64,000 bases of DNA, taken from assembly GCF_007993755.1 (NCBI RefSeq), contig NZ_CP042467.1:4178001-4242000 (forward strand), read 5' to 3'. Positions 44,254-51,373 of the stretch are shown here, piece after piece (position 1 is the first letter of the stretch; every line of letters starts with the position of its first letter). This DNA is from Microvenator marinus (GTDB lineage Bacteria > Myxococcota_A > Bradymonadia > Bradymonadales > Bradymonadaceae). A model generated the notes under the pieces. That model was given only the letters and a program-made list of their open reading frames with translations. It did no database searches and had not been told where the DNA came from. The position numbers were made by a program, and so were the translations under genes.

Positions 44254-47200
44254 CTATTCGCCGGCTAGGTTGCGCAATCGCTCAACGGCCAGCTCAACAG
44301 CGAGTGTGTCCTGTAGCAAAGCCAGACGGGCAAGTGCAACCTGATCATCCGCATTGATGACGTCGAGCTGGGTTGCAGCGCCGTATTGATACGCAATCTG
44401 AGCTTGTTTCTGGGCGGTCTCGGCGAGCTCCACCTGAGTCTTTCCGCTCTCCATCTGGGTAAGGCTCGAGAGGTAATCAGCCCACGCCGTCTCAATCTCG
44501 GCCTGGATGCCAGACTGCAGCTTTTGCTCGTTCAATCGTGCGGCGATCAATTCGGCTTCGACTTTATCGACTTCACCCTCTCGAAAACCACCGTCCCAGA
44601 TCGTCCAATTTGCGCCGAACGTCAGTACCCATCTCGGATCCGAGGGGCTCAATGCGGTCCCCTTTTGCCCGGCGTAGGTGAAGGTCGCCGAGAGTGTCGG
44701 CAAGTAATTCAGGTACATCTCGGTCTTTCGGAGCTCGCTAAACTCGATATTTTTCTCGGCCTCACGCACATCACTGCGCGTCTTGGACTCGTTTCGAATC
44801 TTCTCAATGTCCACATCCGTGGACACCTTCGTCTCAATCACGTCAAAGTCCGCTGGAGTCTGCAGAAGGTCCGCGAGCCCGGTCCGCACGTTGGAAAAGT
44901 TGAGTTTTGCGCTCTCTACGGCTTTCTGGGCCTGCACCACCTGAAGTTCAGCTCTGGTCACCTCAAAATCCGTTGCAGTCCCGGCGTTCTTACGCGCTCG
45001 GGTCGCCTGAAGCAGGGTCTCGGCTGAGATGAGCTGTTCTTTGGAGATTTCCAGCACGCGCCGCGTTGTCAGCAATCCGTAGTAGGATTGGATCACACCC
45101 AGCTCAAGTTGGCGTGTCAGGGACTCCACAGATAGGTCTACAAGCTCTTCTTGGAGGTAGGCTTGGCGGAGCAGCGAAAGCGCTCGGAAATTGGCTCTCA
45201 GGCTCGCTGAGACGCTCCAGTTCCAAGTCGTCTTAGGCTGGATGACGATCGGTTCGGGCTCCATGCCAGGTGGAAGTAAATCACCACCACCAAAATCAGC
45301 CACAACTTCTTCTTGGTTAACAGAGTAATTCGCTCCGGCACTGAAGGTCGGAATCACCGTGGACCAGGCCTGCCGAACCAACGCATCAGCCACCTTGTAC
45401 TGAGTTTGCAGCGTCTTGATGTCCAGCGACTGCGTCTTGAGCAGCTTGCGGGCGTCGTCCAAGCTCAGCGAACGAGTCGCCTCGATATCGAACTCCGAGA
45501 GGTCTCGTTGCCCCTCGAAAATATTGCTGGATTCGATGTCCTCCGGCGTGGTGAAGAGCTTTTGCTCAAGCGGAGCTTCAGTGGGCTCAGCGCCAGCTTC
45601 CTGCGCCTGCAAGGCGATAGGGGAAAGCGCCACAATGAAGAGAATCGCCGCAGAAACGCTGCCTTTGAAGATCATCTTGCGGACCTTCTCCGAGGTGGAC
45701 TCGAAGAGGTCGTACATCACTGGCACCACGATGAGCGTCAGCAGCGTAGACACGGCGAGTCCGAACGAAACCACCCATGCCATTGGGCCCCAGGTTTCAA
45801 CCGAGCGCCCGCCGAAGACAACCTGTGCATTGACGAAGTCGAGGCTGATGCCGACCACCAAGGGTAGCAGGCCGAGCACGGTCGTCGTTGCGGTCAAGAG
45901 GACCGGACGCATACGAACCATTCCGGCCGTCATCGCGGCTTCGCGTATGCTCATGCCTCGTTCGCGCAGCTGATTTGCGAAGTCGATGAGCACGATACCA
46001 TTGTTCACCGCCACACCGGCGAGGCTGATCACACCAATGCCGGTCATGATGATGCCAAAGGGCAGCTGCCCGACCACCAGCGCCATGAAGACGCCGATCA
46101 AGCTCATGATCACGCTACCCATGATGATTAAGGGTTGGAGCAGCGAGTTGAACTGGGTCACCAAGATGAGCACGATGAGGAACAATGCCGCAAGGAGTGC
46201 GCGCCCAAGGAACTCGCCAGCCTCCTGCTGGTCCTCGTTCTCGCCGGTATATCGAATGCTATAGCCAGGTGGAATCTTGAGCTCCTCAAGCCGAGTCTGG
46301 GCTTCCTTAAGGAGGTTCGCAGGGAGGTAGCCAGACGCGGCATTGGCCGTCACGGTCACCACGCGATCCTGGTCCTTTCGTCGAATCGAGCCCGCTCCGC
46401 CTTTGACCTCAAAGCTCGCCACTTCGGTGATCGGAATGTGGAAGTGGTCGTTGTTGACGATATAGAGGCTCGAGAGATCCTCGATACTTTGGCGTTTGTC
46501 GTCCGGAAGTTTGACGGTGATATCGTATTCCTCGTCGCCTTCTCGGTAGACTGTGGCTTCCGTACCATTGATGGCCGTACGAACGGTTTGTGAAACTAAT
46601 CGGGTATCAACGCCCGCAACCGCAGCACGGGCGCGGTCAACCACCACGTGGACTTCAGGGCGCGAGAGTTCCGCGTCGTCTTGGAGGTCGATGATACCGG
46701 GGATGGTCTTGAGAATCTCGCGAATATCCCTTGCGACCGTTGCCATCACAGCAAGGTCATCTCCAACGATCTCGATATTCACAGGCGCACCCGCAGGCGG
46801 GCCCATCGACTCGGTTTTGAGCACCACAGACGCACCTGGTACGTTGGCGTAGATCGCACGCAGCTTATTCATGAAGACGTCTGGGTGCATGGGCTGGTCT
46901 TCAACGTCCACGAGGTCAACCGAGATACGAGCGTAATGGTCGGCGTTGCCGCCAGCTGCCATACCTCCGCCTCCGCCTTTGACGCCGATATCTGCGATCC
47001 ATGCCTCGATGAGCTCGGGCTCGGTTCTGATCGGCTCTTCGATGCCGAGCGCCATCAAGCTGGTCTCGTCGATTCGAGTTCCGTCCGGAAGTTCTATATT
47101 GATCTCGAACTTCTCAGGCGTTGTCTTGGGGAAGAATTCCACGCCGAGCTGTGCCATGCCGAAGATTGCCATGGAGCCGAAGAGGGCTACTACAGATGTA

Positions 47201-48810
47201 GCGATCACCACGATTCGGTGATTGAGCGCCCACTCAAGGCTCGCGCGATAGACCCGGTAAATCCGATTGTCTGGAAGCTGGAATTCGTCCACCTCCTCAC
47301 CGGGATTGACCTTCAGGAGAGTTGCACAGACTGTTGGATTGATCACAAGGGCCACGAAGAGCGAGGAAACAAGGGTGATGATGATGGTTCGCGGAAGATA
47401 TCCCATGAACTCGCCCATCACGCCTGGCCAGAATAGCATCGGGAAGAACGCGCCCACCGTAGTCGCGGTGGAGGAAATCACAGCCCAGCCCACCTCTTTG
47501 GTGCCATCCATCGCTGCAGTGACGCGATCTTTGCCCTCGGACGCGTGACGGTAGATATTTTCTACGATCACGATCGCATTATCCACGAGCATGCCAAGCG
47601 CAAGCACAAGGCTGAAAAGAACCACCATGTTCAACGTGTAGCCAAGCGCGCTGATCACCATGAAGCTGATAAGCATGGAGAGTGGCACGCTGATGGCCAC
47701 GAAGAACGCGTTTCGCGCGCCGCCCATGAAGAAGAAGAGGGTCGCCAGCACGAGGATTAGGCCGGAGATGATATTGTTCTCGAGGTCATGAACCTGAGCC
47801 AGAATCATCACCGACATGTCGTTCAAGACCTTGATGTTGACGCCCGCAGGGATGCGCGCTTCGTAGGTTTTGAGCAGTTCCTTAACGTCATCAGCGATAT
47901 CGATGATGTTCTCGCCAGAGCGCTTCATCACTGAAAGAGAGACGTTATTCGACGTGAACTCAACCCGCTCTTCACCGCGCTCGTCCCACGAAGTGAGTCG
48001 TGAGTAAGTCTTCGGATCTTTGAATGTATCTTCGACTTCGGCGATATCGCGCAGGTACACCGGATTTCCGCCCGGCGCCTTGATGACGATATCCTCGATC
48101 ATCTGCACGTTCTCAAACTCACCGGGCACACGGACCGTGTACTTCATCGGGCCAACATCGATCGCTCCGCCTGGTAGGTTGATGTTCTCAGCCTGAATCT
48201 TGTTGATTACATCGTTGAGAGAGACCTTGTGATAAGTGAGCTTCTCGGGGTCAACGAGCACCTGGATCTCGCGCTCTACACCACCAGCGAGGTCCACACG
48301 CAGTACGCCGTTGATCTTTTCGATATCGTCTTGGATGTCCTCGGCCAACTCCTTAAGACGAAGCGGGTCCATATCCCCGGCCACGTTGACGATCATGATC
48401 GGCCAATCGCTCGAGTTGATCTCGATGACTTCGGGATCCTCGGCATCCGGCGGAAGATCTGGCTTGGCTTTGTCGAGACGGTCTCGTATTCGTTGGAGCG
48501 CGTCTTCAATATTGATCGACGGCTCGAACTCGAGCGTGATCAAAGACACACTTTCCGCGGAGGTCGAGTTCATCCTCTTAAGCCCCGTGAGGCCCTTGAA
48601 TTCTTTCTCCACTGGAATGGTGATCAACGTCTCGATATCGGCAGGGGACACGCCAAAGTAGGCTGTGCTGACGATCACCACTGGAATCGCAACCTCAGGC
48701 GCAGCCTCACGCGGTAAGCCTTGATACGAAATCATACCCCCGATGAAGAGGATGAAGATCAAGACCCAGACCGAAGTGGAGTGGGAAATTGAGAAGTTCG
48801 TAACCTTCAT
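44254..48810 (-). CDS. RND efflux pump fused in frame to a TolC-like outer-membrane channel
   Basis: 1518 residues. Residues 1-1040 are a full RND (AcrB/HAE1-like) transporter: STAYFGVSPADIETLI, membrane segment LGMLVDNAIVIVEN with the proton-relay Asp, VEFFPKTTPEKFEI, GVISLAGVAVNNGIVLIDF and the final helix ending VMYDLFES. At residue 1046 a Met begins a typical Sec signal peptide (MIFKGSVSAAILFIVALS...LQAQ). Then comes a TolC/OEP domain with two helical repeats (SLDDARKLLKTQSLDIKTLQ, NYLPTLSATFTYAG, WTIWDGGFREGEV). Normally these are separate proteins in two membranes. The frame is continuous, with no stop or shift. The adaptor gene overlaps its start (ATGA). Confidence 0.92.
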   Translation of the reverse strand: MKVTNFSISHSTSVWVLIFILFIGGMISYQGLPREAAPEVAIPVVIVSTAYFGVSPADIETLITIPVEKEFKGLTGLKRMNSTSAESVSLITLEFEPSINIEDALQRIRDRLDKAKPDLPPDAEDPEVIEINSSDWPIMIVNVAGDMDPLRLKELAEDIQDDIEKINGVLRVDLAGGVEREIQVLVDPEKLTYHKVSLNDVINKIQAENINLPGGAIDVGPMKYTVRVPGEFENVQMIEDIVIKAPGGNPVYLRDIAEVEDTFKDPKTYSRLTSWDERGEERVEFTSNNVSLSVMKRSGENIIDIADDVKELLKTYEARIPAGVNIKVLNDMSVMILAQVHDLENNIISGLILVLATLFFFMGGARNAFFVAISVPLSMLISFMVISALGYTLNMVVLFSLVLALGMLVDNAIVIVENIYRHASEGKDRVTAAMDGTKEVGWAVISSTATTVGAFFPMLFWPGVMGEFMGYLPRTIIITLVSSLFVALVINPTVCATLLKVNPGEEVDEFQLPDNRIYRVYRASLEWALNHRIVVIATSVVALFGSMAIFGMAQLGVEFFPKTTPEKFEINIELPDGTRIDETSLMALGIEEPIRTEPELIEAWIADIGVKGGGGGMAAGGNADHYARISVDLVDVEDQPMHPDVFMNKLRAIYANVPGASVVLKTESMGPPAGAPVNIEIVGDDLAVMATVARDIREILKTIPGIIDLQDDAELSRPEVHVVVDRARAAVAGVDTRLVSQTVRTAINGTEATVYREGDEEYDITVKLPDDKRQSIEDLSSLYIVNNDHFHIPITEVASFEVKGGAGSIRRKDQDRVVTVTANAASGYLPANLLKEAQTRLEELKIPPGYSIRYTGENEDQQEAGEFLGRALLAALFLIVLILVTQFNSLLQPLIIMGSVIMSLIGVFMALVVGQLPFGIIMTGIGVISLAGVAVNNGIVLIDFANQLRERGMSIREAAMTAGMVRMRPVLLTATTTVLGLLPLVVGISLDFVNAQVVFGGRSVETWGPMAWVVSFGLAVSTLLTLIVVPVMYDLFESTSEKVRKMIFKGSVSAAILFIVALSPIALQAQEAGAEPTEAPLEQKLFTTPEDIESSNIFEGQRDLSEFDIEATRSLSLDDARKLLKTQSLDIKTLQTQYKVADALVRQAWSTVIPTFSAGANYSVNQEEVVADFGGGDLLPPGMEPEPIVIQPKTTWNWSVSASLRANFRALSLLRQAYLQEELVDLSVESLTRQLELGVIQSYYGLLTTRRVLEISKEQLISAETLLQATRARKNAGTATDFEVTRAELQVVQAQKAVESAKLNFSNVRTGLADLLQTPADFDVIETKVSTDVDIEKIRNESKTRSDVREAEKNIEFSELRKTEMYLNYLPTLSATFTYAGQKGTALSPSDPRWVLTFGANWTIWDGGFREGEVDKVEAELIAARLNEQKLQSGIQAEIETAWADYLSSLTQMESGKTQVELAETAQKQAQIAYQYGAATQLDVINADDQVALARLALLQDTLAVELAVERLRNLAGE

Positions 48811-49937
48811 AGCGCGCCTCTATCGGCCTCTGCAGCGTCTTCGACAACCTGAGCCTTTCCGCTCGGCGCCACTTCGGCCGCATTTGAATCCTTGACCTCT
48901 TTGACCGACCTGATTTTGGTCCCGTCTGCGAGGCTTCGGTGTCCTTTCACAATCAAACGTTCGTTGGGTTTAAGGCCTTCTTCAACTACGACAATCGAGC
49001 CCTTTGCTGGCCCGAGCTTGACAACGCGGAGCACGGCTTTACCCTCATCTCCCTCTCCGTCAAAAATCATGGCCTCGGGGCGCTCAAATCCTTCGAGAAT
49101 AGCCTCGCGTGGGACCACCACTACTTCGCCATAGTCCTTTCGAGGAACCACAACCCGTGCCCGCATTCCCGGGAGAATCGAGTGGTCAGCGTTGGCCACG
49201 TGAATCTCAACGGGGAAGGTTCGTGTGTTGGCGGTCGCGAGGATGGCGCGCTTCTTCACCTTACCTTCCACGTATTTCTCAAGGGCCGGAATCCACACTT
49301 GGACATCCGTTCCTTCCGTGACGAAGCGCACGTCGCTCTCGGCCACGTTGGCGATCACTTTTACCGTGTCAAAATCGACGATATGGGCGAGCGGCGAGCC
49401 GGGATTAACGTACTCGCCCTGCTCGGTCATCTTCTGCGCCACAACACCGTCGATGGGGCTTCTCACATTGGTCTTGCCCATGCCGACTCGGGCCTGCTTG
49501 ATGTTCAAGCGAGCGCCGTCAACTGAGCTCTGGGCCTGATCGAGTTGCTGTGGAGTCGCAAGGCCCTGGCCCGCGAGCTGCTTTGTGCGTTGAAACTCAC
49601 GCTCTGCGCTCTCGAGCTGGCTTTCCAGCAGGGCGATTCGCGCGGAATCCACTTGAGAATCCACACGCAGAAGCATGGCGCCTTTCTTGACGCGTTCGCC
49701 TTCTTCAAACGGGGCCGAGAGCACACGCCCGGGCGCTTCCGCCGCAACGTGCACCTCGTGAATGGGCTCCACCACACCGGAGACATCGACCATGTCGACA
49801 AAGGCTCGTGTACTCACCTTCATGGTCTCCACCGGAACGGCGGGTACGACCACCTCGGCCTTCGCCTCCTCTGGTGGCTTGCAGCCAGCACTGAGTCCCA
49901 TCCCAATCAACACAACAAAAATCCATTTTTTCGACAT
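48807..49937 (-). CDS. RND efflux periplasmic adaptor (HlyD/AcrA family) lipoprotein
   Basis: 376 residues from ATG 49937 with GGAGAAGG upstream. Lipoprotein signal ends GMGLSAGC (Cys19). It has the membrane-fusion layout: beta-barrel/lipoyl half (VSGVVEPIHEVHVAAEAPG), a coiled-coil hairpin (RIALLESQLESAEREFQRTKQ), the second lipoyl half (VRSPIDGVVAQKMTEQGEYV) and a beta-barrel plus proximal domain. It links the inner pump to the outer channel. Its stop overlaps the pump start. It is divergent from the TetR gene, across a shared operator region. Confidence 0.93.
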   Translation of the reverse strand: MSKKWIFVVLIGMGLSAGCKPPEEAKAEVVVPAVPVETMKVSTRAFVDMVDVSGVVEPIHEVHVAAEAPGRVLSAPFEEGERVKKGAMLLRVDSQVDSARIALLESQLESAEREFQRTKQLAGQGLATPQQLDQAQSSVDGARLNIKQARVGMGKTNVRSPIDGVVAQKMTEQGEYVNPGSPLAHIVDFDTVKVIANVAESDVRFVTEGTDVQVWIPALEKYVEGKVKKRAILATANTRTFPVEIHVANADHSILPGMRARVVVPRKDYGEVVVVPREAILEGFERPEAMIFDGEGDEGKAVLRVVKLGPAKGSIVVVEEGLKPNERLIVKGHRSLADGTKIRSVKEVKDSNAAEVAPSGKAQVVEDAAEADRGAL

Positions 49938-50043
49938 GAGCCTTCTCCAATGGTTGGCCGCTTCGTAGATGTGAGGTTGATGCGACAAACGAAACACAGT
50001 TTCAAGCTTTTTTTGTGTGGCAAAATTGGCACAACAAAATTGC

Positions 50044-50100
50044 TTGACTTTCAGTTTATTGAACGCTTATTAAAACAGCTTGAACGAGCGTTAAATAAAC
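50044..50100 (+). promoter_or_regulatory. tetR promoter with overlapping 14-bp inverted-repeat operator
   Basis: TTGACT at 50044-50049 and TATTAA at 50068-50073 are 18 bp apart. The arms GTTTATTGAACGCT (50054-50067) and AGCGTTAAATAAAC (50087-50100) form an inverted repeat with one mismatch and a 19-bp spacer. TTGAACG also recurs directly (50059, 50080). The right arm region has an AACG-AG-CGTT dyad. Position suits autorepression and control of the divergent pump operon. Confidence 0.6.
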
Positions 50101-50114
50101 CTCGGCAAATTCTT

Positions 50115-50768
50115 ATGTCAAAAACAGAAATTCCCCAAATGATTGCGGGCTCCGAGTTCGCGGACGGCGCGAAAAAGATTTTGGCCGGTGCGGCCGAGAT
50201 GTTTGCGCTCAAGGGCTATGCTGCCACTTCGGTCAGACAAATCGCGGAAGCAGCCGAGATGTCGGTGCCCATGGTTTACTACTATTTCCCAGGCAAAGAA
50301 GACGTCTTCAAAGCCCTGATGGAAGTCGTGATGAACCACGTGGAAACCGAGCTGGTGCGTACGTTTCCGCAAGATGGAACGCTGCGCGACCAGCTTGTCC
50401 ATGTGCTCGACTTTCACGTCCGACTCGGGATGGAGAATCCCAAGATGGTGGCCATGATGATGAGCACGATGCTCGGCCCGCAAGAAGGACGCCCTGAGTT
50501 CCCTATGCATGAGCAATATGAGGATCATATCCAGGGAATTGCACATCTCTTCGAAAGGCAAAAGCTACGGCCAGGGATGAAGCCGCGCTTCCTCGCCACA
50601 CAATTTTTAGGATTGAAAAACCACGTCATGATCTCGTGTACCGCGCTTGAGGACTCAAGGATTGCGCATTACCACGATGAGATTCGCGAGAATTTCTCTC
50701 CAGAAGGCATTGCCCTGATGGTGGATCAGTTTTTGTTTGGGGCACTCGACCCCGAGGGGCAACGATGA
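50115..50768 (+). CDS. TetR/AcrR family transcriptional regulator
   Basis: 217 residues from ATG 50115; a longer open frame upstream would run through the operator and adaptor gene and is rejected. The N-terminal helix-turn-helix is typical: ILAGAAEMFALKGYAATSVR, QIAEAAEMSVPMVYYYFPGK, EDVFKALMEVV. The C-terminal ligand/dimer domain is variable, so the ligand is unknown. It is divergent from the RND operon and overlaps the ECF sigma gene (ATGA). Probable repressor of the pump and of its own operon. Confidence 0.9.
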   Translation: MSKTEIPQMIAGSEFADGAKKILAGAAEMFALKGYAATSVRQIAEAAEMSVPMVYYYFPGKEDVFKALMEVVMNHVETELVRTFPQDGTLRDQLVHVLDFHVRLGMENPKMVAMMMSTMLGPQEGRPEFPMHEQYEDHIQGIAHLFERQKLRPGMKPRFLATQFLGLKNHVMISCTALEDSRIAHYHDEIRENFSPEGIALMVDQFLFGALDPEGQR

Positions 50769-51373
50769 AGACCAGTAATGAGTGGAGAAACGAATACGAA
50801 CATGTACTCGCCAAAGGCGTCAGGAATGAGACCTACGAGTACGAAGCAGGCATTCTCAATGAGATTTCTCAGGGAAATACAGACGCCTTTGACGCGGTGG
50901 TCGCCGTGCACTCAGGCCGGGTTTTTAGATTGGCGCGCCGCATCGTCAAGAACGAGGACGATGCGTTCGATGTAGCTCAGGACGTCTATTTGACCATGCA
51001 CCGAAAGCTCCCGGAATTCAGGGGCGAGTCCGAGATTGGAAGCTGGCTTCACCGCGTAACTTGCAATGCTGCGCTCATGTATCTGCGAAAGAACGCTCGG
51101 CATACCGGCCATCTCAATGACGAGGTCTTGGAGCAGGTTGGAAGCCCAGAGCGAATCGAAGACGGAGTCCATAATCGGCAAGTGATCAAGCATTTGAAAG
51201 CCGCGTTCGGTCGCCTTTCAAAAAAGCATCAGCTCGTCTTGCAAATGCGGGTCGGCGAAGACCTCTCCATCAACGAGATGGCCGATTCGCTCGGGCTCTC
51301 GGTTCCCGCTACCAAATCTCGCATCCATCGTGCGCGTCTTGCGCTCCTCGCGAGCACGGACGTCCCGATTTAA
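50765..51373 (+). CDS. ECF-type RNA polymerase sigma factor
   Basis: 202 residues, ATGA overlap with tetR. Region 2: AFDAVVAVHSGRVFRLARRI, DAFDVAQDVYLTMHRKLPEF, IGSWLHRVTCNAALMYLRK. Region 4: LSKKHQLVLQMRVGEDLSI then EMADSLGLSVPATKSRIHRA. The N-terminal 30 residues are extra. ECF sigmas are usually held by an anti-sigma factor encoded next door; none follows here, only the protease lipoprotein on the far side of a 109-bp gap. Co-translation with TetR suggests ligand-controlled sigma supply. Confidence 0.9.
   Translation: MKTSNEWRNEYEHVLAKGVRNETYEYEAGILNEISQGNTDAFDAVVAVHSGRVFRLARRIVKNEDDAFDVAQDVYLTMHRKLPEFRGESEIGSWLHRVTCNAALMYLRKNARHTGHLNDEVLEQVGSPERIEDGVHNRQVIKHLKAAFGRLSKKHQLVLQMRVGEDLSINEMADSLGLSVPATKSRIHRARLALLASTDVPI

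Follow-up and report, generated by a model that had tools for sequence, protein, structure and literature searches.

A single gene of Microvenator marinus raises the question of how two parts of an efflux pump that belong to different membranes come to share one reading frame, and whether the product works as one chain or as two. The window (the whole stretch analysed, 64,000 nucleotides, positions 4,178,001 to 4,242,000 of contig NZ_CP042467.1) holds on its minus strand one stop-free frame of 1518 codons with an ATG start, at 44254-48810, read directly from the window DNA. The frame encodes an RND transporter followed by a TolC-type outer-membrane channel (OMF). An initial annotation had placed it at exactly these coordinates and left two fates for the product, a chain that spans the envelope or one that is cut. 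The second is clearly favoured, both by the junction site and by the short spacing between the two parts in many relatives, and the first is not. The gene very probably encodes a polyprotein that signal peptidase I would cut into RND and OMF, made 1:1. The suggestion that fixed 1:1 synthesis is compatible with a 3:3 pump is supported.

Both parts are complete, which supports the initial reading of one gene for a transporter and a TolC-type channel. Pfam ACR_tran matches residues 4-1036 over profile positions 2-1020 of 1021, with 742 bits (cut-off 28), which describes a full-length RND transporter. The C-terminal part carries two Pfam OEP repeats (154 bits for both together, the stronger one at 1345-1517) as well as a TolC fold. 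OMF homology begins near residue 1112 (about 1112-1517) rather than at about 1075 as first proposed; the residues before it form a signal-like segment (1040-1069) and a linker (1070-1111). An AlphaFold2 monomer model of the protein from TM12 to the end yields a confident, complete TolC fold (mean pLDDT 86, OMF body mostly above 90), with low confidence for the signal segment and the linker. The best Foldseek matches to the OMF model are TolC, OprN, OprM and CusC (TM-score 0.65/0.73 to TolC, 1ek9). The solved RND structure closest by sequence is MdtB (9lyq), and no fused RND-OMF chain is found in the PDB, where the best matches listed span the RND half only. Table 1 gives the coordinates.

Table 1. 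Features of the fused RND-OMF locus, in window coordinates.
Feature	Position	Strand	Details and basis
Fused RND-OMF coding sequence	44254..48810	-	1518 aa; ATG 48810-48808, stop 44256-44254; Pfam ACR_tran + OEP
RND transporter, residues 1-1036	45703..48810	-	Ends VVPVMYDLF after TM12; Pfam ACR_tran
Internal signal-peptide-like segment, residues 1040-1069	45604..45693	-	SEKVRK MIFKGSVSAAILFIVALSPIALQA; sequence; equivalent A-x-A segment in relatives
Predicted signal peptidase I cut, A1069/Q1070	45603..45604	-	LQA/QEAG; motif inferred from sequence
Acidic linker of 42 residues, 1070-1111	45478..45603	-	Low AlphaFold2 pLDDT, probably disordered
OMF (TolC/OEP) body, residues 1112-1518	44257..45477	-	Pfam OEP; AlphaFold2; Foldseek
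In-frame ATG (M1046), possible internal start	45673..45675	-	Not conserved; AAGG 8 nt upstream (45684-45687)
Periplasmic adaptor (RND_mfp)	48807..49937	-	Lipobox LSAGC; TIGR01730 215.8 bits, above cut-off
Divergent TetR-family regulator	50115..50768	+	217 aa; Pfam TetR_N

The surroundings are those of a tripartite RND operon. The adaptor gene is present where the initial annotation had it, upstream of the RND-OMF gene, and its TGA overlaps the RND ATG by 4 bases (ATGA); relatives conserve this order. Together, the neighbouring adaptor and TetR genes would suit a drug or amphiphile pump. The transporter reaches the cut-off of none of the named NCBIfam RND subfamilies (RND_permease_2, 627 vs 1250 bits; 2A0602, 390 vs 940; CusA/CzcA 2A0601, 449 vs 701). 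The proton relay of AcrB (HAE-1) is formed by two adjacent Asp residues of TM4 and a Lys of TM10. The window's protein lacks this relay, with VDN in TM4 (residues about 410-411) and VNN in TM10, and nearly its whole clade, fused and split members alike, shows the same residues; proton coupling in this clade may differ from that of AcrB. The region between the adaptor and TetR genes contains two imperfect inverted repeats, at 50002-50047 (22 nt, 77%) and 50054-50100 (21 nt, 81%), which are candidate TetR operators. An ECF-type sigma factor gene (50765-51373) has a start that overlaps the TetR gene stop by 4 bases (50765-50768), which suggests that these two genes are co-expressed.

RND family transporters have 12 helices and a cytoplasmic C-terminus. 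The RND part of the polyprotein would insert co-translationally with those 12 helices and leave its C-terminus in the cytoplasm, and segment 1040-1069 would then serve as an internal Sec signal peptide that carries the OMF half across to the periplasm. Cleavage by signal peptidase I after A1069 would release a 449-residue OMF, which would reach the outer membrane by its assembly route and trimerise. The inner membrane would retain an RND protein of about 1069 residues, to which the signal helix may stay attached as a further, 13th TM helix. The adaptor, encoded by its own gene, would bridge the two proteins, giving an ordinary tripartite pump under the divergent TetR regulator.

By its sequence the junction has the form expected of a polyprotein: the two proteins that it joins are each complete, and between them lies a signal-peptide-like segment with an A-x-A-type site. 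Beyond TM12 the chain reads ...VPVMYDLFESTSEKVRK-MIFKGSVSAAILFIVALSPIALQA/QEAGAEP..., with the predicted site at ...FIVALSPIALQA/QEAG, between residues 1069 and 1070 (L at -3, A at -1, glutamine at +1). The order of elements in the segment (positive stretch, hydrophobic core, proline, A-x-A-type site) is that of a Sec signal peptide. Every one of 40 fused proteins scored has the junction helix, with a mean 11-residue hydropathy of 2.66 (lowest 2.09) and a net charge ahead of the core that averages +1.9. A strict A-x-A follows the helix in 33/40 of them, as against 32/422 control hydrophobic peaks taken from their own RND halves. Removing near-duplicates and narrowing the stretch leaves 31/37 against 28/390. 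Shuffling the same residues 2000 times yields a mean of 18.2 and a maximum of 25, so the signal stands above what an alanine-rich composition produces. The strict motif is missing at a few junctions (e.g. L049, with GWTQD), and the best the window itself offers is L-x-A. The same junction, with A-x-A or something similar, occurs in CusA-type fusions of named Bacteroidota isolates, and split relatives (L092, L094, L131, L133) have an ordinary signal peptide at the equivalent place.

Two proteins could also arise at translation, were the OMF to start with its own signal peptide at the internal ATG at 45675-45673 (M1046), leaving the full-length frame as a by-product. The window makes this look plausible, for M1046 follows a modest Shine-Dalgarno-like AAGG by 8 nt and is itself followed by a textbook signal peptide. 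However, a Shine-Dalgarno match as good turns up by chance at 669/3805 (17.6%) of the in-frame start codons of RND halves, and the nearest orthologue (L013) has no ATG at that place. Nor do 22/40 fused genes have an ATG in the junction; 5/40 have no ATG, GTG or TTG there, and several Bacteroidota fusions likewise have no junction start codon. As a general mechanism, internal initiation is rejected by these junctions, and it would in any case leave unexplained why the RND stop codon is missing throughout the family. It is an unlikely account of the gene, though in the window it may add to the supply of OMF.

A product that is never cut is more doubtful still. The junction helix would be a 13th TM helix and the linker a tether from the inner-membrane trimer to the outer-membrane channel. 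The continuous frame invites this reading, as does the linker length, about 30-73 residues in most members of the window's family, which if fully stretched could be just enough to cross the gap. But A-x-A-type sites are kept well above chance, and in about half of the fused homologues only 9-17 residues separate the core from the OMF. An OMF measures about 140 A in length; its periplasmic alpha-barrel is 100 A long, and helix H1 sits midway along this barrel, in the equatorial ring (PMC8277102). We estimate that the distance from the inner membrane to H1 exceeds 100 A, since the lower part of the barrel, the joint with the adaptor and the periplasmic domain of the RND protein lie between. In 19/37 fused proteins the OMF starts 9-17 residues past the end part of the helix core, a spacing that cannot bridge such a distance, and these proteins must therefore be cut. 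The window's 42-residue linker is marginal as a fully stretched tether, one that length alone permits. It is not a tether by design, because the free OMF of the split relative L092 has a comparable extension, its signal peptide and OMF body lying about 45 residues apart, and the linker is therefore not specific to fusion. It is accordingly very improbable that the gene yields a single uncut chain, and there is equally little to be said for a trans-envelope pump of three uncut, covalently tethered chains that would anchor transporter and channel to each other in the window's own, long-linker lineage.

The polyprotein reading presupposes that the fused frame is real, and its distribution leaves little doubt of that. 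All fused and split calls were made on stop-free ORFs computed on DNA, as the open-frame lengths from homology searches sometimes crossed stops. Among 26 genomes searched within the order, the window's genome and 17 others of its family carry the fused orthologue (53-67% identity over full-length matches; 1509-1599 aa if the gene lies entirely on its contig), while the remaining three genomes of the family show no close copy. The sister family is mixed: the gene is fused in two genomes (L095, L096), and in three (L092, L093, L094) the RND gene has its own stop. Beyond these two families, stop-free fused frames (1489-1640 aa) are present in more than ten other genomes of the phylum, and in L131, L133 and L134 adaptor, RND and OMF are three genes in the same order. 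L132 and L136 encode close RND homologues with an adaptor, and no adjoining OMF gene is recognised there. A stop or frameshift lost in sequencing or assembly, for which the split relatives in the sister family might be taken to speak, is next to impossible and is ruled out by the fused orthologues, all 18 found in the family being stop-free in independent assemblies; the missed stop that the initial annotation wished to see excluded is excluded on the same ground. The fused frame is a conserved feature of the lineage, given stop-free fused orthologues in the family, the sister family and the phylum.

Relatives in which two separate genes occupy this locus, put forward earlier as a refutation, do exist in the sister family and in other lineages. 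They point to recurrent fusion and fission rather than to error, since all family orthologues are fused. A careful RND tree, built from 46 domains, requires 6 changes between the fused and the split state, and well-supported branches force at least 5 of these; a wider, quick RND tree requires 9, of which at least 7 are forced in the same way. These counts do not tell gain of the fusion from loss. The OMF tree is broadly congruent with the RND tree, and the sister family has pairs of split and fused relatives (L092-L096, L094-L095); the same partners have therefore been joined or separated in place. Frequent interchange would be expected if both states give the same mature parts.

RND and OMF in one chain are not peculiar to this gene; the arrangement recurs across the phylum and also in CusA-type pumps of Bacteroidota. 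The latter fusions (L108, L109, L110, and L106 at a contig end) probably have a separate origin, being distant on the RND tree. Chains of 1439-1469 aa with a like junction occur in Flavobacterium, Spirosoma, Hymenobacter, Runella and others, in named isolates also on plasmids, and are annotated merely as CusA/CzcA family transporters. They differ from the window's protein in belonging to the heavy-metal branch and in having the adaptor gene downstream, not upstream. The RND-OMF architecture is thus already in public annotation, unremarked. Our literature search, most subscription papers being outside its scope, found no description of fused or single-polypeptide RND-OMF proteins, or of such polyproteins with internal signal peptides, a weak negative; the passages on fusions in reviews and in a pump paper likewise describe no RND-OMF fusion.

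Well-known tripartite RND pumps (MdtABC, AcrAB-TolC, MexAB-OprM) resemble this system in having a full RND transporter, an adaptor and a TolC-fold OMF, as well as in the single operon and the TetR neighbour; they differ in that RND and OMF here share one reading frame. A parallel for the junction is FbcH, the cytochrome b/c1 polyprotein of Bradyrhizobium japonicum, in which a polytopic inner-membrane protein is followed first by an internal signal peptide and then by a partner that is exported, the whole being cut by signal peptidase. The window's protein shares this layout, with export and cutting here predicted from sequence. FbcH differs in that it serves a respiratory complex and its partner stays at the inner membrane.

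If the prediction holds, one entire type of efflux pump is synthesised as a polyprotein, so that pump and channel are equal in number and leave from a single place in the membrane. The repeated rise or break-up of the fusion makes fused and split relatives natural tests of whether co-synthesis matters in pump assembly. Proteins of about 1450-1600 residues that carry no annotation but "RND transporter" would hide an OMF, and surveys that count OMFs would miss these channels. More speculatively, the RND protein may retain a 13th helix from the signal peptide, and this helix could play the part of the small helix protein AcrZ.

Several further cases may be recorded. OprM-type channels carry a lipobox. 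A Bacteroidota HAE-type RND-OMF fusion (L107:2354-6916) has a lipobox, LGSC, at its junction, which suggests cutting by lipoprotein signal peptidase. It is a single case: ten other candidates (L179-L188) prove to be separate genes on DNA, and HAE-type fusions are rejected as a widespread class in Bacteroidota. The window's genome encodes a second, distant RND-OMF fusion (G000:C1:3650280-3654656; L005:1453-5907), a frame of 1485 codons with a signal-peptide-like junction, FPVWASA/ETP. In the fused proteins L097 (G004), L130, L135 and L138, TM12 and the signal helix are set apart by a long cytoplasmic stretch that is polar and rich in glycine or acidic residues, and that reaches about 60 residues in L097.
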